Shown in pieces: positions 11,088 through 50,024 of a DNA stretch of 64,000 bases. The notes beneath the pieces were generated by a model. The model ran no database searches. It was given only the letters and a program-made list of their open reading frames with translations, and was not told the origin of the DNA. The stretch is from the NCBI RefSeq assembly GCF_003634935.1, contig NZ_RBXO01000001.1:2195501-2259500 (forward strand), read 5' to 3'. Numbering within the stretch: the stretch's first letter is position 1; each line of letters begins with the position of its first letter. The stretch comes from Saccharothrix australiensis. GTDB taxonomy: Bacteria > Actinomycetota > Actinomycetes > Mycobacteriales > Pseudonocardiaceae. The translations under genes and the position numbers were made by a program.

Positions 11088-11098
11088 GTTGAGTCGTC

Positions 11099-11135
11099 GC
11101 GGTCGGGCTGGGCACGGGTTGCCCGGTCCGACCGC
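11099..11135 (+). promoter_or_regulatory. Stem-loop between precursor and lanB (attenuator)
   Basis: Outer arms GCGGTCGG (11099-11106) and CCGACCGC (11128-11135), with inner arms GGGCA (11110-11114) and TGCCC (11120-11124), fold into one long hairpin 11 bases after the precursor stop and just before the lanB ribosome site. Such hairpins commonly let the precursor be made in excess over its enzymes. Confidence 0.7.
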
Positions 11136-11151
11136 CGCCTTGGAGGGCCAA

Positions 11152-15374: not shown

Positions 15375-15446
15375 CACCCGCCGCAACCCAGCGCCGTGCC
15401 CGGCGCACGCCGCTACCATCCGCCCGCCCGCACCGAGAAGGAACTG

Positions 15447-17001: not shown

Positions 17002-17964
17002 GTGGACCTGACCAAGGCTTTCGACACCTTCCAGCAGACTGTCAACGCCGACATCGAGCAGGTGAGGCTGGCCCGCGAGCGACGGGATGCCTTCAAGGGC
17101 GCGCTCAAGGGGGAACCGGGTGTACTGGAGGTGTTCGGTTCCGGCTCGTTGGCGCGCAGCACCCAGCTCAAGCCCGTGCACGACGTCGACCTGATCATGG
17201 TCTTCGACGCGGCCGCGTACCCGGAGTGGGGGCAGCCCGGCGACTCCTCGGCGGGTGCCTTGGAGGTGGTCCGCGAGATGGTCAAGAGGTTGTTGGGCGA
17301 TAGCGGCGGGACCGTCGAGGAGCTCGTCCGCTTGGCCAAGCCGCGCGATCGCGCCGTCAAGTGCTTCATCGACCCGCCTGAGCAGGATGACGCGTTCACG
17401 GTGGACGTCATGCCCGTGTTGCGCCAAGCGGACAACACCCTACTGGTCCCCAGCAAGCGGAAGGAGTGCTGGAGCACTGCTGACCCGGAGTACCTCATTG
17501 CGCAGGTCAAGGAACGACAGGAGAACTGGTCGTACTTCCGCCCGACGGTGCGCGTGCTCAAGCTGTGGCGCCACGGCGTTCCCACCAAGGTCAAGTCGCT
17601 GGTCATGGAGGTGCTCGCCCTGAAGTGCCTCCCCACTGACACGACGCGGCCACAGGCGTTGAAGGCGTTCTTCACCGCCGCCGCGGTCGAGGTCAACTAT
17701 GGCGTGGTGGACCCGGCCGGGCACTGTGGCGTGATCCAGCCTGACCTCGACACCGAGGCGCTCCGCACCGCCTTGGAGTCCGCGCGTGACATCGCCGAGG
17801 AGGCATGTGCGGCCGCAGCCGATGGCGACAGCGACGGAGCGGCGTTGCTCTGGCGGGAGTTGTTCGGGGATGACCTCCCAGCCCCGGAGGAGAAGAGTTC
17901 GGGGACCGCTGCCGGTTCCTTCCTGTACGTCCCGCGGCCGGTCGTGGACGCGCCCCAGGGCTAA
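17002..17964 (+). CDS. CD-NTase (CBASS nucleotide cyclase), operon 1
   Basis: 320-residue nucleotidyltransferase of the SMODS type, expected to make a cyclic di- or trinucleotide after phage infection. The active site is GSGS (46-49), Asp61 and Asp63 in DVDLIMVF, and the third acidic residue Asp135 in FTVDVMP. The GTG start follows GAGG by seven bases. The chain ends in ...APQG. A terminal Gly is what type II CBASS E1/E2 enzymes conjugate. The genes that follow encode E2, E1 and JAB proteins, but no effector, which is unusual. Confidence 0.9.
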   Translation: MDLTKAFDTFQQTVNADIEQVRLARERRDAFKGALKGEPGVLEVFGSGSLARSTQLKPVHDVDLIMVFDAAAYPEWGQPGDSSAGALEVVREMVKRLLGDSGGTVEELVRLAKPRDRAVKCFIDPPEQDDAFTVDVMPVLRQADNTLLVPSKRKECWSTADPEYLIAQVKERQENWSYFRPTVRVLKLWRHGVPTKVKSLVMEVLALKCLPTDTTRPQALKAFFTAAAVEVNYGVVDPAGHCGVIQPDLDTEALRTALESARDIAEEACAAAADGDSDGAALLWRELFGDDLPAPEEKSSGTAAGSFLYVPRPVVDAPQG

Positions 17965-17967
17965 CCG

Positions 17968-18510
17968 ATGAACACCAACGGCGAAGTACCCGTTTCCTGG
18001 TGGGAGTGCGAGCCCCGGCGCCTGGCTCGTGATCAGCACGAAGTGGCCAAGCTGTTCCCCGAGCTGACGTGGTGCGGTGAAGGAGCTGGCCGCTGGGAAG
18101 GGCGGCTGCCCAGGTGGCCGTTCCACCGGCCCGAGCCCACAGGCCTGGCTGAACTGGTCGGGCAGGACGGCATGCCGATCAGGGTGCAGTACGGACATGC
18201 CTACCCGATGGTGCCACCGGCGATCTTCCCGCTCGACCCGAAGCCCGAACTGATCGAGTACAGGCAGACCCGGTTCCACGTCATGGGTGATGGCAGCCTG
18301 TGCCTGTTGCAGGACTACTCGACGTGGACCGGCCGGCAGTCGGTGACCGAGCTGCTGCTGAAGGCGGCGGGCTGGCGCGTCGAGTACGCGCTGCTCAAGA
18401 GCGGTGTCATCGAATCCATGACGATCAACGGCATCGTCAACGACGCCAGCCGCGATCACCTGGTCGAGCAGGCGCTCGAAGAGCTCTCCCCTGGTGGAGG
18501 TCAGGCGTGA
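17968..18510 (+). CDS. E2-like ubiquitin-conjugating-type protein (separate Cap2 E2 half)
   Basis: 180 residues, starting 3 bp after the CD-NTase. The E2 fold is indicated by YGHAYPMVPPAIFPLDP and by the catalytic cysteine Cys112 in GDGSLCLLQ, the same motif as Cys84 (DGSLCLWTD) of the fused protein at 22261. In type II CBASS the E2 is normally the N-terminal half of Cap2. Here it is an independent gene overlapping the E1 gene by 4 nt. Its expected role is passing the activated CD-NTase C-terminus to a target amine. Confidence 0.87.
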   Translation: MNTNGEVPVSWWECEPRRLARDQHEVAKLFPELTWCGEGAGRWEGRLPRWPFHRPEPTGLAELVGQDGMPIRVQYGHAYPMVPPAIFPLDPKPELIEYRQTRFHVMGDGSLCLLQDYSTWTGRQSVTELLLKAAGWRVEYALLKSGVIESMTINGIVNDASRDHLVEQALEELSPGGGQA

Positions 18511-19794
18511 ACGACCTGCTCGTGCTCGTCCCGGGCGAAGCGGCTCGCCGCATGAAGGAAGGTGGTCAGTGGGGCCAGATCACCTTCCGGGTATCGGATC
18601 CGGACAACGTCGGCGCGGTGATCGCGGTGTCGGACGGCTTTAACCCGGTGATGCCCACCCCGCTGCATTCCGCCAACCACTTCCTCAGCGCTGGGGACGC
18701 CCGAGGGCAGCACCGCTGGTACCGGGCTGCGCCCGCGCTGCACCTCCTGTGGTGGCACGCGCGCAACACCGGCCGGGAGATCTCCCTCAAGGCTTTCAAG
18801 GAGAACGTCTTCGGTCGCTGGTTGAACCCTTCGGCCGTCGAGGACTACGTGGCGTTGACCGTGTCAGCGGAAGCACCGGCTGAGTTCCCGGACATCAACA
18901 TCCCCGAAATGGTTGCCTGGTACGTCATCCCGGCCGCCGCACGCCCGGTAGCCATAGACGTGGTGTCCGCTGAACACGGCTTCCCACAGCTGGCCGGACA
19001 CTGGCCGGTTGCCCACTTGGAAGAGAAGTCGGTCATGCTCGTCGGGGTGGGCAGCATCGGCGGAGCCGGCGCCCACGCCCTGGCCAGCTACGGCGTCGGG
19101 CGCATCGTCCTCGTCGACCCCGACCGCCTGCTCAGCCACAACGTGGTGCGCCACGTCTCCTCGGTCAAGCACGTCGGCAGGCTGAAGGTCGACGCGGTCA
19201 AGCAGGAACTGGCCGAGGCGTGGCCAGCCACTCACGTGGACACGCTGCCCGTGGACGTCATCGCCGCGGCGCACCTGATCAGACCTCGTCTTCGGGATGT
19301 CGGCGTCGTGCTGTGCACGGCCGACGGCGTGGCAGCGCGTCGTGTCGTCAGCCACCTGGCGCGACGCGCACGGGACTGACGCCGTTCTCGCCTGCGTACT
19401 CCAAGACGGCGCGGTCGGCGAGATCATCCGGCTGCGCCCCTGGGCCGACCACGGCTGCCTGACCTGCCGTCGCGAGGCGCTCGTAGCCCGAGGAGCGGTG
19501 GATCCCGAACCCGCCCTCGACCTGGGGTACGGCACGGGGACCGCGCACCGGCCGATGACTGCCGTCGGAGGGGACCTGCACCTCGTCGGCCAGATGGCTG
19601 CCAAGGCCGCCGTGGCCACGGTGCTGGAACGGAAAGGTCATTCCGACCAGAAATTGCCCGGTGAGCACGCCATCTTCGGGCTGCGCCCGACACTCGGCTG
19701 GGCTCCCCCGTTCGACCTGGACCGCAACGGCGACATCCGCTGGCTGCCGCACAGCCCTCCTCGCCCGGGTTGCCCCACTTGCGAAGAGCCGTGA
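18507..19794 (+). pseudogene. E1/ThiF-like activating enzyme, frameshifted (separate Cap2 E1 half)
   Basis: The GTG start overlaps the E2 stop, with GGTGGAGG upstream. Frame one runs to a TGA at 19377-19379 and includes the adenylation motif VGVGSIGG and VLVDPDRLLSHNVVRH. The protein clearly continues in the +1 frame (GTDAVLACVLQDGAV..., then CLTC and CPTC cysteine pairs) to 19794, where the stop overlaps the next start by 4 nt. One extra base at about 19366-19371 explains the break. No slippery heptamer or stimulatory hairpin is obvious, so mutation or assembly error is likelier than programmed frameshifting. If real, operon 1 lacks a working E1. Confidence 0.85.
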
Positions 19795-20306
19795 ACGATG
19801 CCAACCCCGGTGCTGTGCGGCGGATCGTGATGGCTCCGGACAGCGCCCGAACCATCCGCCGGACCGTGACCGAGGCAGACGACGGTGCTGAGACCGGCGG
19901 GATCCTTTTGGGACGCGTCGAAGATGACGGCACGGCACACGTGCGGCAAGCAGGTACCCCTGGGCCAGCGGCGATACGGACCCCGAACTACTTCCTGCGC
20001 GACCTCGCGCATGCCCAGCACTTGGCGGAAGCCGCTTTTCGCACTGACGGCAGCATCTGGATCGGTGAGTGGCACACGCATCCCCGTGCGGACGCCGTGC
20101 CGAGCCCACGCGACCTCCTCACCTACTCCACCCTGCTGGCCGATCCTGCGCTCGCTTTCGACGTCGTGCTCGCCATCGTGATCGGCCCCCTCTTGCCGGC
20201 AGCGACCACCCGTGTTGTGGGTTGGGCCTGCACCACGACGGGGGTGACAGCTGTGCCGGTCGAATCCGAAGTCCTGCTCATCCCGGAGGAACTTCGAGGT
20301 ACGTGA
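19791..20306 (+). CDS. cap3: JAB/JAMM deconjugating protease (Cap3-like), operon 1
   Basis: 171 residues from GTG 19791, overlapping the true C-terminus of the E1 gene by 4 nt. The JAMM metal site is complete: Glu34 in ETGGILLG, then His95 and His97 in EWHTHP, Ser105 and Asp108. Cap3 proteins remove the CD-NTase from its conjugates and so limit or recycle activation. It ends 21 bp from the convergent effector gene of operon 2, and there is no room for an effector of its own. Confidence 0.88.
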   Translation: MNDANPGAVRRIVMAPDSARTIRRTVTEADDGAETGGILLGRVEDDGTAHVRQAGTPGPAAIRTPNYFLRDLAHAQHLAEAAFRTDGSIWIGEWHTHPRADAVPSPRDLLTYSTLLADPALAFDVVLAIVIGPLLPAATTRVVGWACTTTGVTAVPVESEVLLIPEELRGT

Positions 20307-20327
20307 CCGAGTGAAGCGGGTGGCCCG

Positions 20328-21800
20328 TCAGCTGTCCACCTCGAACGCCGTGGTGTACCCCCGGTGCCCGCCGAGGTGTTCGTAAACGGTGGTGACCCGC
20401 GTGCGGTTCCACCTGTGCCCGAGCAGGAGCGCGAGACCGCCTGGACCTGCCATGAAGAGGTGGATGCGTTCGGTGCCCGGCAACTCGTCGAGTTCCTCGC
20501 GGACCAGGTTCCGGATCGCTTCTGCATAGGCGACGGCTTGCCCCGCACCGGCGATGGACTGGTCGTCGCTCCCCCCACCTGGCTGGATGGTGAGCAGGCG
20601 GCTGGCTCGCACGCTGTTGTCCTTCAGGTACGCGATCACCGCTGAGGTCGGGTCGACGGCGACCCCGATGGCGACGGCCAGGTCGTTACCGAAGTCCAAT
20701 TGTTGTCGTCGGAGTTGCGGCGCGGGGATGGCAGCCTTCAGTGCATCTGTGGACCACAGCTCGCCGCCCTGGAGGTATCGCAGGGTGTGGCCGCGTACAC
20801 GGGGGAGCGCGGCGCCAACGCGGAAGAACGTCGCTTGGCGCATGGCACCCCCGATGAGGGTGGAGCGCCAACCGTCCCTCTCCAGTGCTGCGGCGGCGTC
20901 CATGATCTCCTGCTCCATCCGAGCCCAGTCCGAAGCGCACCGCGGTTGAACGCGAACCTGGGCGTTGTCACCGTCGAACAGATCCACCCAGTTCAGGGCG
21001 ATGGTGGCGTCCTCGGCATGGGGATCGGCATCTATGGCTTGGACGAGCAAGATCGCTGATGGAGGCGTCGGATGCAGGGACTCCACCGTGCTTCGGATGT
21101 CCTCCTCGGGGATGATCCGCTTGCCGCCGGTAACCCAGCTCGCAACGGTGTTCAGCCCGTGCTGAAGGGAAGAGGCACTCCCGTCAAGGCCGGCGGCGAC
21201 CATCAACGTGCGGACGTGGTCTTCCTCGGCGCTGACCGTCCTCCCGGTGACGAATTGCAGGTGCTCCAGCATCGAGAGCAGTTCGAGGCGGCTTGCACCG
21301 ACGTGACCCGCCCATCGGTCCACAGCTCGCCCGGCTGCGCTCGTCAGCTCCGTATGGCCCGCGTACGGCATCAGCAGGTCGGTGCGGCCGTCGACGTGCC
21401 CGAGCAGCGGGTCGGCGTGATCCAGGGCCCGGTTGGTGATCAAGCGCAGGACGGGGGTTGCACCGCTGCCGCTGAGCTTGACGTAGCTGTCGTACATCTT
21501 TTGCAATAACGACTTGCTCTTGCCGGACGTGGCGGTGAGGTAGCCCTCGTTGACCAGGTCGGCTGGGTTGGTCGCCCACTTGACCTGCGCGAGAATGTCA
21601 GGCTCTCCGGTGCTGCTGCGCAGGACCACGTCGTCGAAGTTCCCCGCGTCGTTGATCTCCACCTCCACCTGCGAGAAGCGGCGCTCAGGGCCGATCACGC
21701 GCATGGCGGCCCCCCACACGAACAGGTCCTGGAACCTGTCCCCGTTGCGTCGAACGCCGGACCTGGACGGTGGACCCGCTGCTGGGCGCTGCCCGTTCAT
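20328..21800 (-). CDS. cap4: Cap4-like effector: PD-(D/E)XK nuclease fused to SAVED sensor
   Basis: 490 residues from ATG 21800, sharing one base with the Cap3 stop (TGATG); longer upstream frames are rejected. The N-terminal nuclease domain shows FDDVV (55-59) and ILAQVKW (69-75), the D...QxK pattern of Cap4/DUF4297 endonucleases. The C-terminal half has the SAVED pattern (LAVAIGVAVD..., IAYLKDN, IHLFMAGPGGLALLLGHRWN, TVYEHL). Binding of the cyclic nucleotide to SAVED should switch on double-stranded DNA cleavage. It is the last gene of operon 2 and the only clear effector for the two CD-NTases. Confidence 0.88.
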   Translation of the reverse strand: MNGQRPAAGPPSRSGVRRNGDRFQDLFVWGAAMRVIGPERRFSQVEVEINDAGNFDDVVLRSSTGEPDILAQVKWATNPADLVNEGYLTATSGKSKSLLQKMYDSYVKLSGSGATPVLRLITNRALDHADPLLGHVDGRTDLLMPYAGHTELTSAAGRAVDRWAGHVGASRLELLSMLEHLQFVTGRTVSAEEDHVRTLMVAAGLDGSASSLQHGLNTVASWVTGGKRIIPEEDIRSTVESLHPTPPSAILLVQAIDADPHAEDATIALNWVDLFDGDNAQVRVQPRCASDWARMEQEIMDAAAALERDGWRSTLIGGAMRQATFFRVGAALPRVRGHTLRYLQGGELWSTDALKAAIPAPQLRRQQLDFGNDLAVAIGVAVDPTSAVIAYLKDNSVRASRLLTIQPGGGSDDQSIAGAGQAVAYAEAIRNLVREELDELPGTERIHLFMAGPGGLALLLGHRWNRTRVTTVYEHLGGHRGYTTAFEVDS

Positions 21801-22264
21801 CAAGCCTCCTGTCCTTGCCGTGCCGCTGTCGGGGCACGAGTGGTGGGGTGCGCGCCTCGGTGCGCGACAGTGATCTCGATCAGGCCGTCGGTCCGGTGGA
21901 CGACGAGGACCAGCGGCTGCTCGTAGGCGATCGACGCCCGCCGTATGGACGTCAAGTCCTGGCCGCTCGTCCCATGCCCTGCCGGGTGGCTGTGCCAGTC
22001 GCCCACGTACCCGAGCCACGGGTGTTCGTGCTCGGCAAGTGCCATGTCGAGGGCGGCCTGTGCTGAACTCTCGTCCCTGCTCCAGGAGTTCGTCGTTGCG
22101 TTGGGGTCGGGTACCTCGATGGCGTACCGGATGACCACTCGGCCGCTGACCCACCAGCCCAGCAGCAACCCCCCGGTCTCCCGCGGGTGCGCGGCTGAGG
22201 CCAACTCCGAGATCGTGGTCGCTGCGTCAGCGTGCACCTCGGCCTGGGCCTTCCGGGGCTTCAT
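21800..22264 (-). CDS. cap3: JAB/JAMM protease (Cap3-like), operon 2
   Basis: 154 residues. The metal site is intact: Glu29 in ETGGLLLG, His91 and His93 in DWHSHPAG, Ser100 and Asp103. The start overlaps the Cap2 stop by 4 nt (ATGA). It should cleave the bond that Cap2 makes between the CD-NTase C-terminus and its target. It shares fold and active site with the operon-1 protein but little linear sequence, so the two operons are not a recent duplication. Confidence 0.9.
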   Translation of the reverse strand: MKPRKAQAEVHADAATTISELASAAHPRETGGLLLGWWVSGRVVIRYAIEVPDPNATTNSWSRDESSAQAALDMALAEHEHPWLGYVGDWHSHPAGHGTSGQDLTSIRRASIAYEQPLVLVVHRTDGLIEITVAHRGAHPTTRAPTAARQGQEA

Positions 22265-23793
22265 GACGCCGCATCTTGCAGGACGTCACTGGTCATCGTG
22301 CCGATCCGGTTGTAGAGCGGCTCAGGTTGAGGGCGCCGCACGACGGCAATGCTGGCGGGCAGTTCACACGTCAGCAAGGCAGCGCCGACGACGACCTGGT
22401 GCGCGAGTTCCGCTGCGGCCACCACCGCGCCTGGTGGCGTCGGCGAAACCGCGCTGCCGCAACCACGCTCTTGGAGCCGGGTGCCGCTGTCGAGGCGGGG
22501 AAGAGCGGGGAGGTACCTCTCGCCGCTGCGGAGCGGCATCCGATCCACCCTGAGGACGTCACCATCGCGCTGCACGCATGCCGAGACCACCGCGTGCCCC
22601 GTCGAACGGCCCATCGACTCGGCCGCCGTCGCCAACAGGCTGCTCGCATAGCCGCTGCCCGTGGCGTCCAGCACCACTTGGTGGTCGCGAATGAGGTCTT
22701 CCGCTTCCTCCAGGTCGTCAAGACGGCCCCAGGGGAGGTGGATACCGGTGACGTCGGGATCGACAGCCCTCAGACACGCCCGTACCGCTTCGGTTTTGAG
22801 CCAACCGACGTACCCGTTGCCAGCGAGGTGCCGCACCACGTTGCCGGGGCGGAGGCGTTCGCCGTCGACGAGCGTTAGCCTGCGCGCACCCGCGCGGAAC
22901 AGCGCGTCGGCCGCGAAGGAACCTATTGCACCGCAACCGACGATAGCGATTCGAGTGGTCGACAGCTCCGGAGCAGCCGAGCCTGCACGCATCATGCGCG
23001 TCGCAGCGCTGACATCGGCGCTCTCACAGGCGGTCACCTGGATGGCGTCCGACGACTTTCGAACCCTCACCACGAGGACGCCTTGCCTCGTGCCGCGCAC
23101 GTAAAGGAAGAGGATGTGGGTAACGACACCGACGGCGATCAACCGCCTCACCTCTACGGCACGAGGGCCGAGCGCGACGGCAACGTCGTCCCAAGACCGC
23201 AGGGGCCGCGTGATGCAGCCGATATCGGCCACCCATGCCAAATTGCGGTCCTTACGCCGCGCGTCGAGGTCGCCGACTCGCCGGCGCTCGTTCGTGATCG
23301 AGATCGTATGCGGGTTCGGTCCAGGCCCGGTGCGCACGGCGCGGTCGATTGTCAAGGCGGAAGCGTCGTAGAGCACCAGCCTGCGATCGGCGTGCTCCTG
23401 TTTCAGGTAGCGCTCCAGGTCGCAGTCGTCATCGCCGGGCCAACCGGCCGCAGTCTTGCAAAGCCAGCCACCGATGCGGTCCAGCAGTACGTCCGGGACC
23501 AACCAGGGAGCCTGGTCGACCGCCCAATCATCCGTCCAGAGGCACAAGGAGCCGTCAGCATTCGCGTGGAACGTGGTCTCGAACGGCGCTCCTGCGTCCA
23601 GCATGATCACCTTGGGAGGTAGGAATGGGAAGGTCGGCCCAGGTCGGATCTCCACACGAGCAATGTTCGTCTGGTCAGCCGTCGAGCGGTGCCACGGTAC
23701 CGGGCCACAGAGGTGATCACCGTCGTCAGTGAACCCGAGTGCCACCAGTCCTTCCCGCCACTGGTCCGCAGCCGCCGCAAAGGGGCTGATCAT
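22261..23793 (-). CDS. cap2: Cap2: fused E2-E1 ligase-like enzyme, operon 2
   Basis: 510 residues. The E2 domain occupies about 1-140 with catalytic Cys84 (DGSLCLWTD). A linker domain follows to about 275. The E1/ThiF adenylation domain has VGCGAIG at 285-291 and VDGERLRPGNVVRH, with a later cysteine in ERGCGSAV that may carry the thioester. Cap2 activates and conjugates the CD-NTase C-terminus, priming cyclic-nucleotide synthesis. Both flanking junctions are 4-nt ATGA overlaps. Comparison with operon 1 shows where that operon's E1 lost its frame. Confidence 0.92.
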   Translation of the reverse strand: MISPFAAAADQWREGLVALGFTDDGDHLCGPVPWHRSTADQTNIARVEIRPGPTFPFLPPKVIMLDAGAPFETTFHANADGSLCLWTDDWAVDQAPWLVPDVLLDRIGGWLCKTAAGWPGDDDCDLERYLKQEHADRRLVLYDASALTIDRAVRTGPGPNPHTISITNERRRVGDLDARRKDRNLAWVADIGCITRPLRSWDDVAVALGPRAVEVRRLIAVGVVTHILFLYVRGTRQGVLVVRVRKSSDAIQVTACESADVSAATRMMRAGSAAPELSTTRIAIVGCGAIGSFAADALFRAGARRLTLVDGERLRPGNVVRHLAGNGYVGWLKTEAVRACLRAVDPDVTGIHLPWGRLDDLEEAEDLIRDHQVVLDATGSGYASSLLATAAESMGRSTGHAVVSACVQRDGDVLRVDRMPLRSGERYLPALPRLDSGTRLQERGCGSAVSPTPPGAVVAAAELAHQVVVGAALLTCELPASIAVVRRPQPEPLYNRIGTMTSDVLQDAAS

Positions 23794-24824
23794 GCGTACC
23801 GATCTTGCCCCGCCGGCACGGCCGGGGCTCCCTTGACCAGTGCGCGACCTGAAGACTTGGTGGACCCGTCGGGGTTGCAGTAGTCGGGTAGGGGGAACAC
23901 GTGCTCGGGCTCTTCGATGTCCTGCGTTTCACCCAGCAGGTCTCGCCATAGCACTGCGGACTTACAGGGGTCCTCTTCTTCGAGTGCCTTCTTCGCCAAC
24001 GCAGCCGCTTCAGCGATCCTCTCGGCCGCTGCCTCGATCTGCTCTGCCGTTGCCTTCGTCTTGATCGTGCGATCGTCGAGGGTGGGGTCGTCCGGTCCCT
24101 CATCCACGTAATCGGGTAGTCGTTCGGCGATCCCTCCCAGGATCACGGACAAGTAACTGGCGATCGTGCTCTCGTCGGGCTGCAAGTCTTGGAAGGCGTG
24201 GTAGGTGAGCACTTCGAAGTAGTAGCCGCCAGGCTGGTCGTCCACCCAGGTTCGCCGAACCTGTCGAATGAGCTTCACCATCGGCATGTAGATGCCGCTC
24301 TCATCGTCGTTCGGGTTGAGCAGGAAGTCTTTGTTCGCGGCTGTCGTGAGCTCAGCCATCTTGATCGGGTTGGTCTCGACCCAGCTCGCCCGACCGTCGT
24401 CTTCGATCTTCTCCGGGATCTGCCAGTGGTCATCCGGGTGGTACACGCAAGGGCGGGCGATGACTACGTCGACCGACAGGTCGAAGTCGGGGAACTTGAT
24501 CATCACAGAGCGGTGCTGGCGCTCCACGCAGTCCGGGAAGGCTTCCTCCAGGACTTCGGTCACATGATCGAGTATGTCTCCCGGGCGCAGCGATGACGTC
24601 GCCTTGGTCAGCCGGGCGAATACGTCGACATCCTTGACCCGCTTGATCGACACGTGCCGACCGTACGACCCGATCAGGAACGTCGATACGCCCAACTTCT
24701 TCAATCGGTCGTCTGCCTCCAGCGCCTCGGTGACCTGCTTGTGCGCTTCCTGGGCGTTCTTCGCGTCCTCCTCCGGTTCGATCTGGCTCAGTGCAGCTTT
24801 GAACGACTTGGCGAGGTTTGCCAC
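23790..24824 (-). CDS. CD-NTase (CBASS nucleotide cyclase), operon 2
   Basis: 344-residue SMODS-type nucleotidyltransferase. Active-site residues are GSYGRH (52-57), Asp65 and Asp67 in KDVDVFA, and Asp119 in LSVDVVIA. A helical C-terminal domain (about 240-300, AEQIEAAAERIAEAAALAKK) resembles the OAS1-type C-terminal fold. The chain ends in a flexible tail ...GQDRYA, the part expected to be conjugated by Cap2. It is the first gene of a tight four-gene operon read leftward from the 24825-25237 region. Confidence 0.9.
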   Translation of the reverse strand: MANLAKSFKAALSQIEPEEDAKNAQEAHKQVTEALEADDRLKKLGVSTFLIGSYGRHVSIKRVKDVDVFARLTKATSSLRPGDILDHVTEVLEEAFPDCVERQHRSVMIKFPDFDLSVDVVIARPCVYHPDDHWQIPEKIEDDGRASWVETNPIKMAELTTAANKDFLLNPNDDESGIYMPMVKLIRQVRRTWVDDQPGGYYFEVLTYHAFQDLQPDESTIASYLSVILGGIAERLPDYVDEGPDDPTLDDRTIKTKATAEQIEAAAERIAEAAALAKKALEEEDPCKSAVLWRDLLGETQDIEEPEHVFPLPDYCNPDGSTKSSGRALVKGAPAVPAGQDRYA

Positions 24825-25237
24825 TCACTGCTCCCTCCCCTTTAGTGACACTTGCGATCGGGTGAGCGCAAGAAGTGTCACCGCTGAGTGGTTGCTTGAT
24901 GATAGCGACGTCCTACGGCGATGCAATGGTCGTGACGCTGATCACATGGACGGATACGTAGGGTGAGGACGGATCGGTGTACATTATCCGGAATAGCATC
25001 ACTCTGGTAATAGTGGTCAACTGTAGATGGCGATTATTATTGGTTGATCACCTCGGAGGGTGAACGATTGATCCGTTGTGATTGGTGCGGATGGACAGTC
25101 CAGAAGTGTCTGGGGTGTTTGCCTGCCATGATGATCGGCATGAGTTCGACAGCTACCCTCCGTGAGTCATCGGCGACAAGCAGCCGCTGTGCAGTCTGAA
25201 CTTGGTTCGTGTCGGCCCTTGGCCGCTCGACGTGGGG
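24825..25237. other. Divergent control region between CBASS operon 2 and the CARF-like gene
   Basis: 413 bp without a supported gene. It contains the inverted repeat at 24845-24881 and an A/T-rich middle (24980-25060), expected for back-to-back promoters. An alternative TTG start (25202) of the rightward gene falls inside it. Confidence 0.55.
24845..24881. promoter_or_regulatory. Inverted repeat in the CBASS operon-2 leader
   Basis: GTGACACTTGCG and CGCAAGAAGTGTCAC are inverted copies apart from a three-base bulge, centred 39 bases upstream of the CD-NTase start. It could be an operator for a dimeric repressor or an RNA hairpin restraining translation. No dedicated regulator (such as CapW or CapH) is encoded next to it. 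Confidence 0.55.
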
Positions 25238-25993
25238 ATGAGCATGAGGGTCTTGATCTGGGCGGGGGATCGCATCTTCGGTGCCAGACGCCACCTGGAG
25301 AGCGTGTTCGTCGCAGTCCTGCTGATTCCCGTAGTGCCTGACCTGTTCGTCGACTGGCTCGGCGACCCCGGACGACCTCAACACAATGGTGTGCTGCGCG
25401 TACTGGCCGTGATCACTGTCTTCACCCTCGCGGTCCTGATCGGCGTCGCCAGCAACGCCTGGGTACGTCGTCGTGGCGAACGTGCTCGTAGGCCTTTCAC
25501 CCCTCTACCAGCCGCTGACGTCTTGGTTCTGCCGATCAGCGCTCGTTCGAACCCGTACTTGCGCAACCAGCGCCGTGACCGAGCGCCGGAGGTCCCGGAG
25601 TTCCTCTGCGAGGAGAGCACGCCTAAGACGGTCGTCGGCATCTTGACCCCCCGAACCGCGCCGATGGCAGATGGCGTCGCGACCGAGTTGGCTGCTGACG
25701 GCATCGCGTTCCAGCCCGCCCTGATCGACGACGCACACAGCCCGGTCGCCGCGGTCGAAGACTGCGACAAGGTCCTCGACCAACTCCGCGCCCTTGGCGT
25801 CCCTGCCGATCGCGTGCTCATCGATGTCACCGGTGGCAGCGTCCCGCTCACCCTCGCGATGATGCGCGTCGCCGGGATCCTTGGTGCCCGCTGCGTCTAC
25901 GTGTCCGCTGACGTTGATTCCGACGGCCGCCGCGTCCCCTACAGCCAACGTGGGCACGCCTTCGACCCTCGAGCCATCACGGGTGACGCCTGA
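25238..25993 (+). CDS. Two-helix membrane protein with CARF-like sensor motif
   Basis: 251 residues from ATG 25238 (ATG 25244 is better spaced from GGGG; TTG 25202 is less likely). Two hydrophobic helices (about 20-41 and 51-74) are followed by a Rossmann-like domain. Its segment VLIDVTGGSVPLTLAMMRVA, with DVTGG at 196-200, then GARCVYVSAD, is the pattern of CARF domains that bind cyclic oligonucleotides. Membrane-CARF effectors are known from type III CRISPR systems, but no cas genes are present here. Its place next to CBASS operon 2 suggests a second, membrane-acting effector. That role is inferred. Confidence 0.8.
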   Translation: MSMRVLIWAGDRIFGARRHLESVFVAVLLIPVVPDLFVDWLGDPGRPQHNGVLRVLAVITVFTLAVLIGVASNAWVRRRGERARRPFTPLPAADVLVLPISARSNPYLRNQRRDRAPEVPEFLCEESTPKTVVGILTPRTAPMADGVATELAADGIAFQPALIDDAHSPVAAVEDCDKVLDQLRALGVPADRVLIDVTGGSVPLTLAMMRVAGILGARCVYVSADVDSDGRRVPYSQRGHAFDPRAITGDA

Positions 25994-26091
25994 GTCGTCG
26001 TACCTGGGCGAGCACCGAGTGGCGCGGTTGGCTGCGACGCCCCGTGTCCCGGAGCAGTCAGGTTGTCGGACGTCGTTGGCAACCTGAAGCG

Positions 26092-26568
26092 ATGTACAGC
26101 TACTTGAACCCTGGGCCGACGCCTTCTGCTGCGAACCCCGCCACGGCGAAGCTGATGCGGCGTGTCAGGAGGTCGGGCACGAAACCGGAGTTGGCGTTGC
26201 GCAGCGCGCTGCATCGGAAGGGACTGCGCTTCGTCGTGGACCGCTCACCACCCGGGACGGATCGGCGCAGGCGGGTTGACATCCTGTTGCGCGGTGCCCG
26301 CATCGCCTTGTTCGTCGACGGTTGCTTCTGGCACTCCTGCCCGGTGCACGGCCAGCTCCCGCAGAGCAACCGAAAGTGGTGGAGGCTGAAGCTGAGGGGG
26401 ATCGCGTTGCGTGACCGCGACACGGACGCCCGGCTCGCCAAGGCGGGGTGGTTGGTGGTCCGGGTGTGGGAACACGAAGACCTCGCGGAGGCCGCGCAAC
26501 GCGTGTTCGAACTCGTCGCGATGCGCACCGCCCGGTCAGCCGTTGACCCCACTCATGCAGGTAGCTGA
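26092..26568 (+). CDS. vsr: Vsr-like patch-repair endonuclease
   Basis: 158 residues from ATG 26092. Motifs of the very-short-patch-repair family are clear: MRRVRRSGTKPELALRSAL, VDILLRGARIALFVDGCFWHSCP and WLVVRVWEHED. Vsr nicks beside T:G mismatches left by deaminated 5-methylcytosine and normally sits beside a cytosine methyltransferase, but none is present in element 1. In defence islands Vsr-like proteins also occur as restriction-type nucleases. Its 3' end overlaps the convergent translocase gene by 33 bp. Confidence 0.88.
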   Translation: MYSYLNPGPTPSAANPATAKLMRRVRRSGTKPELALRSALHRKGLRFVVDRSPPGTDRRRRVDILLRGARIALFVDGCFWHSCPVHGQLPQSNRKWWRLKLRGIALRDRDTDARLAKAGWLVVRVWEHEDLAEAAQRVFELVAMRTARSAVDPTHAGS

Positions 26569-28983
26569 ATTCGGTCCTCGCGCCTGCCAAGGGTGGAGGG
26601 GTGGTTTGGGGTCAGCCCGGCCCGCTGTGCCAACCTTCGGCGACGTGCTGAGGAGTCGGAGCAAGGCCCTCGACGGGCCTGTGCGGGACGTTCTTAAGCA
26701 GGAACCGCGGTTGATCGGCACAGTGGAACGTTCCCCGTCGTGCCAGGTCAATGCCGTTCCGGTCGTTGCTGCGGAGTTGGAACGGCCAGGCGGGGTCGGC
26801 ACAGCTGTGCCGACCCCGTTCCGGCCTAAGCTGCCGTGGATGACAGCGCGGATCATGTCCAGGTCGGCCACGCTGACCGGGTTGTCGTGGCCCGGCATCC
26901 GTCGCTTGCCCGCTGAGGGAACTCCGGCGGCGCGCAGTGCCTCACCGAACGCCTTGACTTCCCAACCGATACGCCCGGCCAGCTCTGATCGAGCCACCAG
27001 GCCGTGTTCGTCTTCGCTGATCACCTTGGCCAGCAGCGTCAGCACTTCCGGTGATTCGCGTCCTGGCTCGGCACCTGCGAGTTCTGGTGCACCGGCGGTG
27101 GCGGTGGCAACCTCGGTGGCCAGGCGTGCGGCTGCCGTCGGATCGAGCACCGCCAGGTCGTGCTCTCCGGAGGCGTCCCCGGTCAGCGTCCCGGCCTGCT
27201 CGCGCAGCACTCGGCCGCGTTCGCAAGCGGCGCGGATCGCGGTGATGTGCAGCAGGTGCGTGCGCACAGTGACCGCCTCCCCGGCTGACAGCTCGGTCTC
27301 GCCATCGGCACCCAGCAGCAGGCCGACACCCTTGTGGCTGGTCAGTAGCTTGGAGGCGTCCATGCTGGCCCTGTAGGTGCCCGCGCCCAAGATGGTCTCC
27401 GATGCCTGCCAGGTCATGGTCTTCAGCGCGAATCGCGTCCCGAGCTGGCCGCGCAGCCCGTCTGGGATGACCTGGGCGTCGGGCTTCTGGGTGGCCAGGA
27501 TCAGCGAGTAGCCCGCGGCTGGGCCGGTCTTGGCGATGTAGGTCAGGAGTTCGCAGATGCGTGCGCCCACTTTCTTGCCCTTGGGGTTGTCGTCGTCCAG
27601 CGGCACGTCCAGGCCGAGGAAGTTCTGGACCTCGTCGATGCCGATCACGGTCAGCGGCATCCGGTGGGTCGGGTCGCGGGTGATCTCCGGGGTGACCTTG
27701 GATTCGGGGCACAACTCGTCATCCATCTCGGCGAGCCGGTCGAACCGGTCGGCCACGTCCGCCGCGCACTCTTCCAGCACGCGAATCAGCCGGCGGGCGT
27801 CGGTCTCACGGGAGCCTCGGATGAAGCGGTGTGCCACCTGTTCGAACGGGCGGAAGTCCTTGCCGCCCTTGCCGTCGGCGATGATCAGTCGCACGTGCGG
27901 GTCCAACGCCGCGGCGGTGAGCGGCAGGCGGGCGACGAACGTCTTGCCCTGGCGAGGGATCGCGCCGATCAGCAAGGAAGTCCACACCACCGGCAAGTTC
28001 ACGGTCGTGCCGCGGGCGGTGGTGCCGAAGGGCACTGGCTGCCACAGGTCCCAGCTGGGCGCTGACGCGAGGGGACTGGGGATCGGGTCGGCGGCGTACG
28101 GGTCGGCGTCGCCCACCCACAGCGCCAGTCGCCCGGCGTGGCCGTCGTCGCCCCGGACGCGTTCCACGATCAGCCGCACCTCGTCCACCGCCAGCGCCGA
28201 GGCCAGGGCTTCCCGCTTACCGATCACGTCGGACGCCTTGCGCGACGGCGGCAGGTCGAGAGTCAGCGCCCACCCGGCACCGTCGTGGCGCGGCGCCTTG
28301 ACCAGCATCAGCGACTCGTCGCGGCCGATCAGCTTGGCGTCTCGGAAGGCCACCACCAGGTGGTCGCCGTTCATCAGCCACGCCAACGACCGGGAGCCCA
28401 AGCGGGTGCTGCGTCCACCCGCACCCTCCCGGCGTCGACCGGCCGCCGCCAAGACCACAGACATCACGCTGGCAGAGACCACCAGCGGCAAGGAGCCAAC
28501 AGTCAGTTCAGCGACCAGGCTGGCAAGGCTGACCGCGCTCACCGCCACCAGGGAGATCACGCCCCGACGGCGGCGGACGACGGCGATCTCCTGCCACTTG
28601 TCGGCCAGCCGGTCGGCGGCCTTGGACGCCTCGTAGAAGTCCGTTACCCGTACCCACGCCCACCAGGCGCGGGCCGATACCGCCAGGCCGCGCCCAACCG
28701 CCGCCGGGTAGCGCATCGGCACCAGCAGCGCTTGGTTCACCAGTTCAACCCCGGCCTGGCGGGCAGACTCGGGGGTCTGCCACTGGGCGGGCAGGCGGGA
28801 CACCGCCGACTCGGCCAGGCGGTGGACGCGGGAACGCTGGTACTCGGCTTCGGTGATCAGCTCGCCGTCCAAGGCAGGTACGGCTGCTTCCACCGCACCT
28901 GCGTTCTCGGCGTTCTCCTCGACGGGGGCGTTCGGGAACGGGATCAACTCGCCGCCCCTGTCGCCCTGCATCGTCAGGCTCAT
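26536..28983 (-). CDS. FtsK/SpoIIIE-type conjugal DNA translocase (TraB-like)
   Basis: 815 residues. Two membrane helices are at about 150-200 (ISLVAVSAVSLASLVAEL and LPLVVSASVMSVVLAA). The motor domain has Walker A GAIPRQGKT (340-348) and Walker B VIGIDEVQ (about 445-450). The C-terminal part from about 650 contains a winged-helix-like segment (LAGRIGWEVKAFGEALRAAG). TraB-type translocases move double-stranded DNA between mycelia and are the hallmark of AICEs. The last about 90 residues are low-complexity and contain a 28-bp palindrome, so the reading frame may have been extended by later sequence. It overlaps the next upstream gene by 4 nt. Confidence 0.9.
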   Translation of the reverse strand: MSLTMQGDRGGELIPFPNAPVEENAENAGAVEAAVPALDGELITEAEYQRSRVHRLAESAVSRLPAQWQTPESARQAGVELVNQALLVPMRYPAAVGRGLAVSARAWWAWVRVTDFYEASKAADRLADKWQEIAVVRRRRGVISLVAVSAVSLASLVAELTVGSLPLVVSASVMSVVLAAAGRRREGAGGRSTRLGSRSLAWLMNGDHLVVAFRDAKLIGRDESLMLVKAPRHDGAGWALTLDLPPSRKASDVIGKREALASALAVDEVRLIVERVRGDDGHAGRLALWVGDADPYAADPIPSPLASAPSWDLWQPVPFGTTARGTTVNLPVVWTSLLIGAIPRQGKTFVARLPLTAAALDPHVRLIIADGKGGKDFRPFEQVAHRFIRGSRETDARRLIRVLEECAADVADRFDRLAEMDDELCPESKVTPEITRDPTHRMPLTVIGIDEVQNFLGLDVPLDDDNPKGKKVGARICELLTYIAKTGPAAGYSLILATQKPDAQVIPDGLRGQLGTRFALKTMTWQASETILGAGTYRASMDASKLLTSHKGVGLLLGADGETELSAGEAVTVRTHLLHITAIRAACERGRVLREQAGTLTGDASGEHDLAVLDPTAAARLATEVATATAGAPELAGAEPGRESPEVLTLLAKVISEDEHGLVARSELAGRIGWEVKAFGEALRAAGVPSAGKRRMPGHDNPVSVADLDMIRAVIHGSLGRNGVGTAVPTPPGRSNSAATTGTALTWHDGERSTVPINRGSCLRTSRTGPSRALLRLLSTSPKVGTAGRADPKPPLHPWQARGPNSATCMSGVNG
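26791..26818. repeat. 28-bp perfect palindrome in 3' part of the translocase gene
   Basis: CGGGGTCGGCACAG is followed immediately by its reverse complement CTGTGCCGACCCCG with no spacer. A spacerless palindrome is a poor hairpin and a good protein-binding site. The transfer locus clt, or an operator for the plasmid-type regulators of the element, are candidates. Confidence 0.7.
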
Positions 28984-29966
28984 GCAGCACCCCTGCGGAG
29001 GGCATCACGGACTTCGCGGGCCGTGTCGGTTCCGCATCCCAGCGCCTCCCGCAGCCGCGTGGCGGACGGGTCGGCGGACAGCCGGCCGGAGGCGATCATC
29101 CACCGAGCGCGGTCTACCAGTAGGGCCACTCGGTCGCCGGTGGTCCCGCGCTGTGCCGCAGCGGTGCCAGGCGCGTTTTGCCTGTACTCCGGGCTGGTGG
29201 GGGTAGGAGTAGGGCCTACCGGTAGACCGTGGTCGAGGTCGGTGAACGCCGTCCAGATGATCGGCAGCACCGCCACGGCGCCGACCGCGACCAGTGGGCC
29301 GATGGCGTGGGCCAGGAGCTGCATCGGGTCGAACCGCGCCCACGGCACCGACACCCACGGCAGGTACGGCCACACGTTGAGCGTCAGCGTCACCGCCAGC
29401 GCCCCGTACTCGACCACCGCCAGGTGCGGATGGTGCAGTACCCGGCCACGGGTCGCGAGGAATGCCCGTGCGCCGACGACCACCAGCAGCACCGCCGAGA
29501 TGACCGGTTCGACCGCCCACGCCCCCCACCACGCGGCGGTGCGCTCGACCATGCCGCGAGTGAGCGTGTGGTGCACGCCCGTAGTCGACCATCCCAATGC
29601 CCCGACCAGCGCGGCCAAGGCGACGACGGTGAGCACCAAGCGCACCCGTGACGCCTGCCAGGCCCGTGCGGCCGGGTCCTGGGCGAGGGCGTGGAGGCGG
29701 GCGGCCTCGGCGGCGCGCTTGCGGCTGCGTCGAACACGCCCGGTGTCCACCAGCAGCGGCGCCGCGTCGGCCTGCAACTCCAGCAGGACGTGGGCCTCGT
29801 CGACCTCGGCACGGAGGTCCCGGACCCGCTTGGTGGCTGGTGCGACAGCGGGTGGAGCCTGGTCGGCGGCGGCCGGGGCGTGGGCGGCGACGTACTTCTC
29901 CAGTTCGGCCACAGCGCCCTCCACGTCGTCGTCGTTCGGCTCGGGGAAGGGCATGGAGGTGTTCAT
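28980..29966 (-). CDS. Spd-like multi-pass membrane protein of the transfer region
   Basis: 328 residues. The N-terminal 110 are charged with coiled-coil-like Ala/Glu/Arg runs. Four hydrophobic helices follow (about 108-125, 150-170, 185-205, 218-240). The C-terminal 60 look soluble with an HTH-like end (TRLREALGCGTDTAREVRDAL). Proteins of this shape (DUF2637 or SpdB-like) accompany TraB and help spread the element within the mycelium. It overlaps both flanking genes by 4 nt. Confidence 0.78.
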   Translation of the reverse strand: MNTSMPFPEPNDDDVEGAVAELEKYVAAHAPAAADQAPPAVAPATKRVRDLRAEVDEAHVLLELQADAAPLLVDTGRVRRSRKRAAEAARLHALAQDPAARAWQASRVRLVLTVVALAALVGALGWSTTGVHHTLTRGMVERTAAWWGAWAVEPVISAVLLVVVGARAFLATRGRVLHHPHLAVVEYGALAVTLTLNVWPYLPWVSVPWARFDPMQLLAHAIGPLVAVGAVAVLPIIWTAFTDLDHGLPVGPTPTPTSPEYRQNAPGTAAAQRGTTGDRVALLVDRARWMIASGRLSADPSATRLREALGCGTDTAREVRDALRRGAA

Positions 29967-30169
29967 CGCTGCACTCCGCAGTCCTCACCGGGGCACTCCA
30001 CGATGTGCCAGGTGCGACGCGCGGCGGCGCTGCGGCCCGACAGCAGGTTGGTGGCGTCGCGCAGCCCCTCGGCGGCGGTCCGATCCTCCAGGCAGTGCGG
30101 CGAGGAACGCCAGCCGTTGGGGTGAGCGAGGCTCGGCGGCTCCTTGTAGAACAGGTGCACCCGGCTCAT
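29963..30169 (-). CDS. Small hypothetical protein in transfer operon
   Basis: 68 residues from ATG 30169 (MSRVHLFYKEPP), which overlaps the stop of the preceding HTH gene by 4 nt; the longer frame to 30241 is not needed. Two cysteines near the C-terminus (VECPGEDCG) suggest a small metal knuckle. No family is recognised, but the overlaps on both sides support it as a real member of the operon. Confidence 0.68.
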   Translation of the reverse strand: MSRVHLFYKEPPSLAHPNGWRSSPHCLEDRTAAEGLRDATNLLSGRSAAARRTWHIVECPGEDCGVQR

Positions 30170-30795
30170 CGGGCACTCCCGTTTCGCGGTGGTGCACAGC
30201 GCGGGCACGGCACCGACCGCGTGCGGTCCTCGTCCAGCCACACGACGCGGGCGCTGACCGGGTCGGAGTCGCGGGCGTCACACTGCCCGCACACCGGTGG
30301 CACCGCCGAGCGCCCCGTCGGGGGCGCGCTCGGCGCGGGACGGTTATCTGGACGGTTGAAGGACGGTTTGTGCGTCGTGGTGACGCCCCCGCTGGTCGCT
30401 GCTGACGCCCCCAGGCGCTTCTGCTGACGCCCCCTGCTGGTCAGAGGGGCGTCATCCTGACGCCTCTCGCCAAGGGCTGTGGACAACCTGGTGGACAGCG
30501 CGAGGTTGTAGACCTGGGGTCGCGCGTTGGCTTCCGGGATCTTGGCGTCGCGCACGTGGGTGTTGCCCGGCCTGATCAGGCCCAACTCTTCCAGCGACCG
30601 CAGCGAACGCTGGATGGTACGTCGGGACAGGCGGGTGTAGCGCATCATCCGCTCGACCGACGGGAACGCGTCGCGACCGTCGGGGCCGGCGTGGTTGGCG
30701 AGTGCGATCAGCGTGATCGCCAGCGTCGAGGCGTCCTTGCGGTCGGTGGGGATGGGGGCGTGGTTGAGCGCCCAGCTGATGGCTTCGACGCTCAC
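30166..30795 (-). CDS. Helix-turn-helix protein (HTH_36-like), probable element regulator or replication protein
   Basis: 209 residues from GTG 30795, overlapping the previous stop by 4 nt. The N-terminal winged helix is clear (SVERMMRYTRLSRRTIQRSL, then LEELGLIRPG), a pattern found in plasmid replication initiators and in element regulators. The C-terminus has a CxxC...CxxC zinc-ribbon-like pattern (VCGQCDARDSD, PCPRCAPP). The middle is disordered. Confidence 0.8.
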   Translation of the reverse strand: MSVEAISWALNHAPIPTDRKDASTLAITLIALANHAGPDGRDAFPSVERMMRYTRLSRRTIQRSLRSLEELGLIRPGNTHVRDAKIPEANARPQVYNLALSTRLSTALGERRQDDAPLTSRGRQQKRLGASAATSGGVTTTHKPSFNRPDNRPAPSAPPTGRSAVPPVCGQCDARDSDPVSARVVWLDEDRTRSVPCPRCAPPRNGSAR

Positions 30796-31100
30796 CAGGC
30801 ACCGTCCACGGCGCGTGCGCGGTAGAGAAGGCTGGCGACGGTGCCGACCACCGAAATGTCGTGGGTGGCCAGCCATTCGATCACGTGCCGGTCGTGCTCA
30901 CCCAGTTCGACGCCGTCCAGCGGCTCCAGGAGAGCGGTGACGCGGTCGGCGTGGCGATGAGCGTGCAGTTGGTCAGTGGTCTCGTCCGGCTGCTGGCTGT
31001 CGAAGGTCCCGCTGTCCTCCATGTCGAAGGGCGGGCGAAGGCGCCGCGGTGGCCGTCGGAGCGGCGTAGTCGTGGGGCTGGGGAAGTGGGTGGTGCTCAT
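30792..31100 (-). CDS. Small hypothetical protein, first gene of the right-end operon
   Basis: 102 residues, ATG 31100. The N-terminal 45 residues are Pro/Thr/Arg-rich and probably disordered. The C-terminal half (HDRHVIEWLATHDISVVGTVASLLYRAR) is helical. No family is recognised. It heads the leftward operon of the translocase, whose promoter must lie in the 153 bp between it and the attachment repeat. Confidence 0.65.
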   Translation of the reverse strand: MSTTHFPSPTTTPLRRPPRRLRPPFDMEDSGTFDSQQPDETTDQLHAHRHADRVTALLEPLDGVELGEHDRHVIEWLATHDISVVGTVASLLYRARAVDGAW

Positions 31101-31253
31101 CGTGAACAGGACCTCTGGTGCTCGGGTCCCGTCTCACAGGCGTCTCACGGACCTGTTGGACGGGGCCGGACTGGAGGCCCTGACCTGGACTGCCGCCGGA
31201 CTCGACCAGCCACAACGGACCGGGCAGGACCACTGTGGACACCCCTTGTCCCG

Positions 31254-31300
31254 CTGGGGGTCAAGGGGTCGCAGGTTCAAATCCTGTCGTCCCGACGGTC
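31254..31300 (+). repeat. Attachment site copy 2 (junction of elements 1 and 2)
   Basis: Identical over 47 bp to 322-368. It serves as the right end of element 1 and the left end of element 2. Only the anticodon-loop-to-3'-end part of the tRNA is present, so it does not make a tRNA. Confidence 0.93.
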
Positions 31301-31303
31301 ATG

Positions 31304-31339
31304 ACCAGCGGGTTTGCCTTTCGAGGCAGACCCGCTGGT
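31304..31339. terminator. Hairpin terminator after attachment copy 2
   Basis: ACCAGCGGGTTTGCC (31304-31318) and GGCAGACCCGCTGGT (31325-31339) pair with one G-T, followed by gtcgtttt. It lies four bases after the attachment repeat, mirroring the hairpins after the other two copies but unrelated in sequence. Confidence 0.82.
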
Positions 31340-31384
31340 GTCGTTTTCGGCTGTTGTGGTCGCAATGTGGTCGCGCCCTGCGAG

Positions 31385-32545
31385 TCAGGCGACGTCGGCC
31401 TCGTTCAGGGCGTGGGCGACGGCGTCGTGGGCGACGTGGCGTAGCAGATGGCCGTAGATTTCGGTGGTGGACAGGGTCGAGTGACGTATCGCGCGGGAGA
31501 TCACGGCGAGCGGCACGTTCGAGTTGAGCATGGTGGTGGCGGCGAAGTGCCGTAACTCGTGCACGCGGATTCTGGGTAGTCCGGCGGCATTGGTGAGTTG
31601 GTGGAAGTGGTGGAGTACGTATTCGGGCCGTAGCGGCCTGCCGTCGGATCGGTGGAAGACCAGGTCGTCGCCGGGTTGGCGGAGCCGTTGGTGGCGGAGG
31701 GCGGTGATGACGCGGTCGGACAGGCCGATCCAGGTGCGGCTGCTCTTGGTCTTGGGTGTGGTGAGGACCGGTGTGGTGTTGTTGATGTTGGACAGGGTGT
31801 AGCGGATGAACGCCACGTGGTCGTCGAGGCTGATGTCGTCCCAGTGCAGGGCCAGCGCCTCGCCTTTGCGTAGTCCGGTGCCGATGATGACCTCGAACAG
31901 GTCGGTGAGCGGGTCGTCGTGGTCGTGGCAGTAGCGCAGGAACCGTGCTGCCTCGCTCGGTGACCAGCAGGTGGGTTCGTACTTCGGTGGCCGCGGTACG
32001 AGGGCGTAGCGGGCTGGGTTGTGCGCCAACCGCCGCTGCCGGACGGCGTCGGTGAGGGCGCTGGACAGGGTGGCGCCGCAGCGCCGCAGGGTGATCGGAC
32101 CTCGTCCGGCGGCCAGTTGGTTGTCGATGAACAGCGCGATGTGCTGGTGGTTGAGCGTGTCCAATCGCACCGCGCCCAGGGCGGGGACGAGGTCCTTACA
32201 GACGTAGTCGTGATAGCGCGCCGTGGTCGTCGGCTTGAGCGTCAACGTCTTGTCGTGCAGCCAGGTGGTCAAGTAGACGGCGACGGTCTGCTTGTCGTCG
32301 GTGACGATGCCGGTCCGCTCATACTCCAACACCTTGCCCAACGCCGCCTGAGCTGCTGTCCTGGTGGCGAAGCCGCTGCGCGGCATGGTCCGCCGACATC
32401 CGTCCAACGATGGCAGGTCGACCGCGAACGCCCATCATCCGTGCCTGCCGCCCGCCAGTTCGGGGCACCGGGCGCCGAGCTGCCTGCCTCCGTTATCCCG
32501 ACAGCCGCACCGCCGGTACACACGCCCACGTTGAGGGTTACTCAT
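31385..32545 (-). pseudogene. int: Tyrosine integrase of element 2, interrupted by in-frame TGA
   Basis: From ATG 32545 the frame encodes the typical N-terminus (GRVYRRCGCRDNG, CPEL) and hits TGA at 32435-32437. It then continues in the same frame as WAFAVDLPSLDG... to a complete catalytic domain: first Arg in GTGLRKGE, box II HELRHFAATTML, HSTLSTTEIYGHL with the nucleophilic Tyr. Family members usually have Arg at the stop position, and CGA to TGA is a single transition. Translation from TTG 32407 would give 340 residues without the N-terminal domain, so activity is doubtful. It is a different subfamily from the element 1 enzyme, yet it uses the same tRNA core. Confidence 0.85.
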
Positions 32546-32556
32546 CATGACCTTCT

Positions 32557-32594
32557 CTCGTGTTCCACCTCCCGTGTTGGAGGTGGAACACGAG
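32557..32594. promoter_or_regulatory. Perfect 16-bp inverted repeat upstream of integrase 2
   Basis: CTCGTGTTCCACCTCC (32557-32572), six-base loop CGTGTT, then the exact reverse complement GGAGGTGGAACACGAG (32579-32594). It begins 12 bases before the integrase start, so it covers the promoter or leader of that gene. It could be an operator, an RNA hairpin that masks the ribosome site, or a terminator protecting the integrase from upstream readthrough. Confidence 0.75.
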
Positions 32595-33236
32595 CGTGCG
32601 CCGCATGCGACCACACCGCGACCACCGGCGTCGTCACTGCAGGTCTGGTTCACGACACTTGTCGACATGACAGCATCCGCTGGTTTCCGATGACATCGTT
32701 CGGGTCTTCCTCGTCGCGGGATGACGGCGTTACCGATGCGTGGTGAGGTGGCTGGCTGGGTTGACAATCCTGACGTAGACCCGCTTGAGGGTCACGGCGC
32801 AGTCAACGTTGAAGGAGTCGCAGGCCGACATGCCGGACGCCTGGGCGCACGCAGGAACCGCCACTTCCTCGCGACCAGGCGCCGGTGTCATCGCAGGATG
32901 GTTCCCGAGGTCACAACTTGTGCTCGTCCAGCAGTCGGGGGAGTCGGCATGGACAACCTCATCCGGGTCTACGCAGGTGAAGCCGGAGAAATGCCTTACC
33001 TCTCACAGTCACCGGTTGAGACCGCCTCCAGCTACAGCACGGAGGCCCGTTGTCCACGGTGACCAACGAGCCTCCGGCATGTGGAGAGACAGTCGCACCG
33101 AGCTGATCAGGCAACGCCAACACTTCGACAACCCGCGAAGCGTCACAACATCTCACTCGATCGAGTGAGGCGGGCGGGCTCTGACTGCGTGTCGCCACCA
33201 GATCAGCTGCGTTGGACTGCTACAAGCGAGTCCGAC

Positions 33237-49939: not shown

Positions 49940-49984
49940 CTGGGGGTCAAGGGGTCGCAGGCTCAAATCCTGTCGTCCCGACGG
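49940..49984 (+). repeat. Attachment site copy 3 (attR of the array)
   Basis: 45 bp matching 322-366 with one difference (GGCTC for GGTTC in the T-loop region). It closes element 2. The mismatch may be the ancestral chromosomal sequence or a mutation tolerated because this copy encodes no tRNA. Confidence 0.9.
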
Positions 49985-49988
49985 CCAG

Positions 49989-50024
49989 GAGGGTCTTCGC
50001 AGGTCAGATACTGCGAAGACCCTC
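49989..50024. terminator. Hairpin terminator after attachment copy 3
   Basis: GAGGGTCTTCGCAG (49989-50002) and CTGCGAAGACCCTC (50011-50024) are perfect 14-bp arms with an eight-base loop, followed by ttcttgtgatttt. It is the best Rho-independent terminator of the three behind the repeats, and is plausibly the original terminator of tRNA-Pro before any element inserted. Confidence 0.85.

Follow-up and report, generated by a model that had tools for sequence, protein, structure and literature searches.

An array of 10-bp repeats behind the translocase gene of a probable AICE as a candidate clt

Described clt systems and the locus behind the translocase gene

TraB-type transfer relies on a single pump and a single address site to move double-stranded DNA, and the address is experimentally known for a few Streptomyces plasmids. 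In pSVH1 its 8-bp unit is GACCCGGA. According to the excerpted text of PMC3583192, pSVH1 TraB binds repeated 8-bp motifs via its C-terminal winged helix, the pJV1 clt is composed of nine 9-bp direct repeats, CCGCACA(C/G)(C/G), together with imperfect inverted repeats, and the pWTY27 clt, which is bound by TraA, occupies ~175 bp where traA ends, with 16 bp of it intragenic, and contains 7-bp direct and inverted repeats with the letters TGACACC and CCCGCCC. The sps site of pIJ101, as excerpts of PMC4170104 present it, is a short palindrome of 12 bp inside a coding region near the transfer genes, is bound by SpdA2 and acts on stability, not on transfer. Excerpts of PMC9513070, PMC3218068, PMC6722414 and PMC12857230 supplied further background. 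In the excerpts available from the open-licence literature searched, we recognised no description of an AICE clt motif.

The 64-kb stretch of DNA analysed here (the window) carries eight copies of a 10-bp repeat at 26626-26826 (minus strand), behind an FtsK/TraB-type translocase gene. Judged from the DNA letters, this array is likely to be the clt of an AICE translocase: the site is at or behind the translocase gene, its repeat copies include inverted repeats, and the translocase has a predicted C-terminal winged helix. As in pSVH1, short repeats of both orientations follow immediately after the translocase stop, and the two translocases are related (32.8% identity over residues 204-600). Behind pSVH1 traB one 8-mer occurs five times within 120 nt, above 200 of 200 shuffles and 43 of 43 control windows; the letters of this top 8-mer, CCGGGTCG, differ from those of the window's repeats, and pSVH1 is an autonomous plasmid with an experimentally proven clt, whereas the array in the window is predicted. 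The pJV1 letters CCGCACA are contained in GGTCCGCACA, the RQR-type repeat of the window's relatives, whereas the window's own copies have only GCACA in common with them. pWTY27 likewise has its repeats where the translocase gene ends, with other letters and on a theta-type plasmid. The pIJ101 sps resembles the locus in being a short palindrome in a coding region near transfer genes and differs from it in being no part of the array described here. If the reading as clt is true, the transfer address of an AICE could be read from sequence, and hence also the elements or chromosomal stretches that a given TraB mobilises; the arrays described below supply specific candidate addresses for three groups of translocases, along with a correlation between repeat letters and the wing of the winged helix.

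A 28-bp palindrome within an array of 10-bp repeats

The translocase ORF of the window (26536-28983, minus strand, 815 aa) matched solved FtsK chains weakly yet specifically (best E 2e-5). Close relatives of the protein were found in the same genus and family, with identity of up to 97% over 385 residues; wider searches yielded relatives in two of three genomes of the genus of G045 and in 2 of 397 genomes of the order, all of them already known. The relatives' translocases end 97 codons before the window ORF, at the place of 26827-26829 (minus strand), where the window has TTA in the position of their stop codon. As far as the relatives reach, the gene thus covers 26830-28983 (minus strand), and the remaining 97 sense codons and stop (26536-26829, minus strand) have no protein counterpart in close relatives. 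The C-terminal extension that the earlier note had described as low-complexity is therefore a read-through of the 3' region. The TTA at the former stop may reflect either genuine mutation or an error in sequencing.

Within this read-through, at 26791-26818, lies CGGGGTCGGCACAGCTGTGCCGACCCCG, which is identical to its own reverse complement, perfect over 28 bp and without a spacer. No other perfect palindrome without a spacer is as long in the window (the runner-up has 18 bp), and base composition alone predicts 0.0012 palindromes of this length per 64 kb. With up to three mismatches allowed, its 26-bp core matches nowhere else in the window, and none of 100 shuffles contains a match. The palindrome is thus, as had been claimed, not a product of chance, whereas its location in translocase coding DNA applies to the window's ORF and not to the relatives, whose stop precedes it. 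Longer hairpin stems exist elsewhere in the window (20 bp at 56609-56650, perfect with a 2-nt loop, and 16 bp at 32557-32594), so that the palindrome is singled out not by stem length but by the repeat array that surrounds it.

The palindrome is made up of two facing copies of the repeat GG(T/C)(C/T)(C/G)G(A/C)AC(A/G), copies 2 and 3 of the array, plus two bases at the centre and some complementary flanking bases. Copy 1 (GGCCGGAACG, 26817-26826), which begins 3 nt past the first base of the former stop codon, is on the minus strand, as are copies 2 (GGTCGGCACA, 26806-26815), 5 (26755-26764), 7 (26680-26689) and 8 (GGTTGGCACA, 26626-26635). On the plus strand are copy 3 (GGTCGGCACA, 26794-26803), which faces copy 2, copy 4 (26775-26784) and copy 6 (26713-26722). 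Copies 4 to 7 deviate from the consensus by one mismatch. Against the four consensus and four one-mismatch copies observed, shuffles of the window's 210 nt contain on average 0.03 and 0.89, respectively, and other 210-nt stretches of the window contain at most two and at most four.

In the 260 nt behind the translocase stop of 20 distinct related elements we counted 98 consensus copies, using a consensus derived from these same 20 elements; 200 shuffles contain 1.27 on average and 5 at most. The narrower form GGTC(C/G)G(A/C)ACA occurs 30 times in 2,750 nt behind the stop in 11 loci including the window (250 nt per locus) and twice in 106,446 nt elsewhere, both of the latter being the halves of the window's own palindrome, tallied there with a stop offset of 246 instead of 291 nt. 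The first repeat copy lies at +3 to +7, counted from where the stop codon begins, in 16 of the 20 elements. Seventeen of them have a facing pair with a start-to-start distance of 12-14 nt; at up to one mismatch per site the pair is absent from L013, L020 and L043, which retain repeats, and in L011 it is displaced to +196, after an additional small ORF. An extra reversed copy is found 19-23 nt past the facing pair in 14 of the 17, and more copies follow in the remaining stretch. The letters GAGC(T/A)G appear at +75 to +97 in 12 of the 20 elements.

A wide distribution of the exact palindrome was rejected: its 22-bp core has no exact match in genome_contigs and its 20-bp core none in viral_contigs. 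In its own genome the 20-bp core is present once, with up to three mismatches allowed. The nearest copy, in L007, differs from the window in the centre. The search for the palindrome in related elements that the earlier note had proposed found the exact core in no other record scanned, whereas the repeat array is kept; the absence from relatives that the note had named as its refutation holds for the exact palindrome and not for the array. By this comparison, the conserved unit is the array of 10-bp repeats, not the exact palindrome; there is good support for the proposal that a transfer locus of the clt type lies at the translocase gene's 3' end, with the array in the place that the note had given to the palindrome. 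Array DNA had no plasmid relatives at E 1e-5, and relaxing the threshold to E 10 gave no more than short, weak matches. A search for a plasmid array with a string of repeat copies returned eight records and was discarded; the best place, the one of them viewed, is between metabolic genes and not in a tra locus.

Repeat letters, wing residues and other translocase groups

A winged helix, the proposed reader of the repeats, is predicted for the 75 residues that precede the former stop (26830-27054, minus strand), with a mean pLDDT of 92.6 and a pTM of 0.78; this model supersedes an earlier fold that included a disordered leader (mean pLDDT 68.2). Foldseek with the winged-helix model returned winged-helix regulators, some of them operator-bound, with a best E of 0.015 among the matches listed. 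By sequence the domain has no match among solved chains and no convincing match in Pfam. Its structural matches were to general winged helices and not to the FtsK gamma domain, with no E of 0.001 or lower among the best 50 of 1267 and of 1329 matches.

GGAAC-type copies occur in all eight elements with a GKRR, GKKR or PKRR wing and in one of nine with an RQR wing (Fisher p 0.0004, ignoring kinship). This comparison covers 17 of the 20 elements, the others being L034 (GKRR wing, three GGAAC-type copies) and L013 and L022, in which the wing is unread. The fifth repeat letter is C in none of 39 copies that accompany the first wing class and in 28 of 37 that accompany the RQR wing. The weakest cases of the GGAAC class are the window itself, with one GGAAC-type against three GCAC-type copies, and L007, with two against two. 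On a tree of the motor domains the wing type needs four changes, two of which are forced by well-supported branches, and the sister motors L012 and L020 differ in both wing and repeats. The repeat type tracks the wing in nearly all pairings and never goes the opposite way. The number of independent wing/repeat pairs is four on the whole tree and two on well-supported branches; these two agree, and because there are just two the agreement falls short of significance. It could stem from linkage of neighbouring DNA without any binding, and is suggestive of repeat letters that are specific to the translocase.

Arrays of other letters were seen behind more distant translocases. In 29 of 34 loci, an unbiased 8-mer repeat score over the 250 nt behind the stop was higher than in any of 200 shuffles, the exceptions being L003, L031, L041, L029 and L020 (91, 22, 3, 2 and 1 shuffles as high, respectively). 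Control windows can equal the locus score (for example 25 of 131 for L027 and 28 of 33 for L003), so that the score alone is no proof, and the same letters across relatives are the stronger evidence. In five loci (L003, L004, L005, L014 and L016) CCCGTC(A/C) occurs 18 times in 1,250 nt against 12 times in 21,415 nt elsewhere, with one copy each in L003 and L014, and in eleven loci a CTAGCGG-type motif occurs 51 times in 2,750 nt against 15 times in 161,124 nt elsewhere, with none in L031; both motifs were chosen on the data used for counting. Nine of these eleven loci belong to genera that we take to be Micromonosporaceae. By 8-mer score and motif count L003 and L031 have no array behind the translocase. 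The translocases of L003, L004 and L005 belong to the window's own genome, and L004 and L005 carry CCCGTC repeats behind them; different repeats thus occur in one host, which makes them element-specific and not host-specific.

The facing-pair pattern GGTCSGMACA-N(0-20)-TGTKCSGACC was found in 19 of 249 family genomes, against one of 249 for a control pattern. Six of its 22 places are behind a translocase of the window's type and 16 are away from it, which rules out the pair as a stand-alone clt detector: a lone pair is not diagnostic, and the array is. Of the 16, 14 were viewed, and 11 of these have no further copy within 300 bp, while L062 and L064 have one and L066 has two. At 1440-1560 of L066, at least four repeat copies and a GTGAGCTG box lie behind an unrelated regulator-like ORF, and the 3-kb L066 locus contains no translocase relative; this array is perhaps an orphan clt. 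Near-identical facing pairs occur in five other family genomes (L053, L055, L056, L057 and L063), four of them beside a regulator ORF that is GntR/MocR-like by eye, and these are perhaps a separate conserved hairpin, maybe a terminator.

Hairpin, host element and alternative roles of the repeats

Very probably the palindrome belongs to the address tag that allows the pump to recognise its own DNA for transfer from one bacterium to another; if the array is the clt, the palindrome would be its central facing pair of sites. In the model we propose, each 10-bp copy would be a binding site for the winged helix, and copies in tandem and facing arrangement would serve to load the translocase ring onto the excised circular element, from where the loaded ring would pump double-stranded DNA into the recipient. 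As the array adjoins the gene, reader and address would be inherited together. The hairpin of the palindrome may additionally end transcription.

It is unlikely that the palindrome merely ends transcription of the translocase operon. Such a terminator might serve both strands, given that the Vsr-type endonuclease gene vsr (26044-26568) points toward it. The hairpin is strong on both strands (-38.8 kcal/mol, z -5.4; plus strand -37.6, z -6.1) and lies directly behind the gene end in most relatives, as a terminator would. T runs behind the terminator stem may be dispensable in actinomycetes, and the palindrome has none; it is also not among the four terminator-like sites listed for 20000-33000. 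Termination accounts neither for copies that lie beyond the hairpin nor for the conservation of the repeat letters and their agreement with the wing, and L020 has repeat copies without a hairpin (z +1.2).

Still less probable is a replication origin whose iterons serve a replication protein of the element. Short repeats in both directions are typical of origins too, and an HTH_36 helix-turn-helix protein is encoded nearby, at 30166-30876, but the array is situated behind the translocase, ~3.3 kb from that gene. L020 has the array, whereas no relative of the HTH_36 protein was found in its 17-kb locus, and different translocases have different repeats. It is scarcely credible that the copies are operators at which a repressor controls a small ORF located past the array: such an ORF starts shortly past the last copies in L008, L009, L012, L015 and L044, but copies are kept in the window, L007, L041 and L047 with no small ORF visible (both by eye).

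The array, which we regard as a likely clt, belongs to a probable AICE at 322-31304, with att copies at both ends, an integrase gene (484-1653) and the translocase gene near the far end. The att-like repeat of 51 bp is present in three copies (322-372, 31254-31304 and 49940-49990), the outer two 94% like the middle one, and the copy at 322-372 overlaps the end of a tRNA-Pro gene (290-364). The sequence features by which an AICE is recognised are thus present: an integrase, att repeats, one of them over a tRNA end, and an FtsK-type translocase between them. A second integrase gene (31385-32407) follows the middle att copy, so that there are probably two elements in tandem behind the tRNA-Pro gene.

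Several further features of the window and its relatives were noted. A 75% relative of Vsr is also encoded behind the array of L007. Two convergent CBASS-like gene sets lie at 17002-24824, one on the plus strand (SMODS 17002-17964 and ThiF 18300-19379, with a JAB-type ORF at 19770-20306) and one on the minus strand (SMODS 23790-24824, ThiF 22261-23793 and SAVED 20328-22154). The ORF at 25202-25993 has a weak CARF-type match (TIGR02710, 25.4 bits, below the cut-off of 83.9). Lanthipeptide-type genes for a lantibiotic dehydratase, a LanC-like cyclase and a PCMT-type methyltransferase are located inside the element at 11089-16646. Strong hairpins adjoin two of the att copies, at 31304-31339 and 49989-50024.
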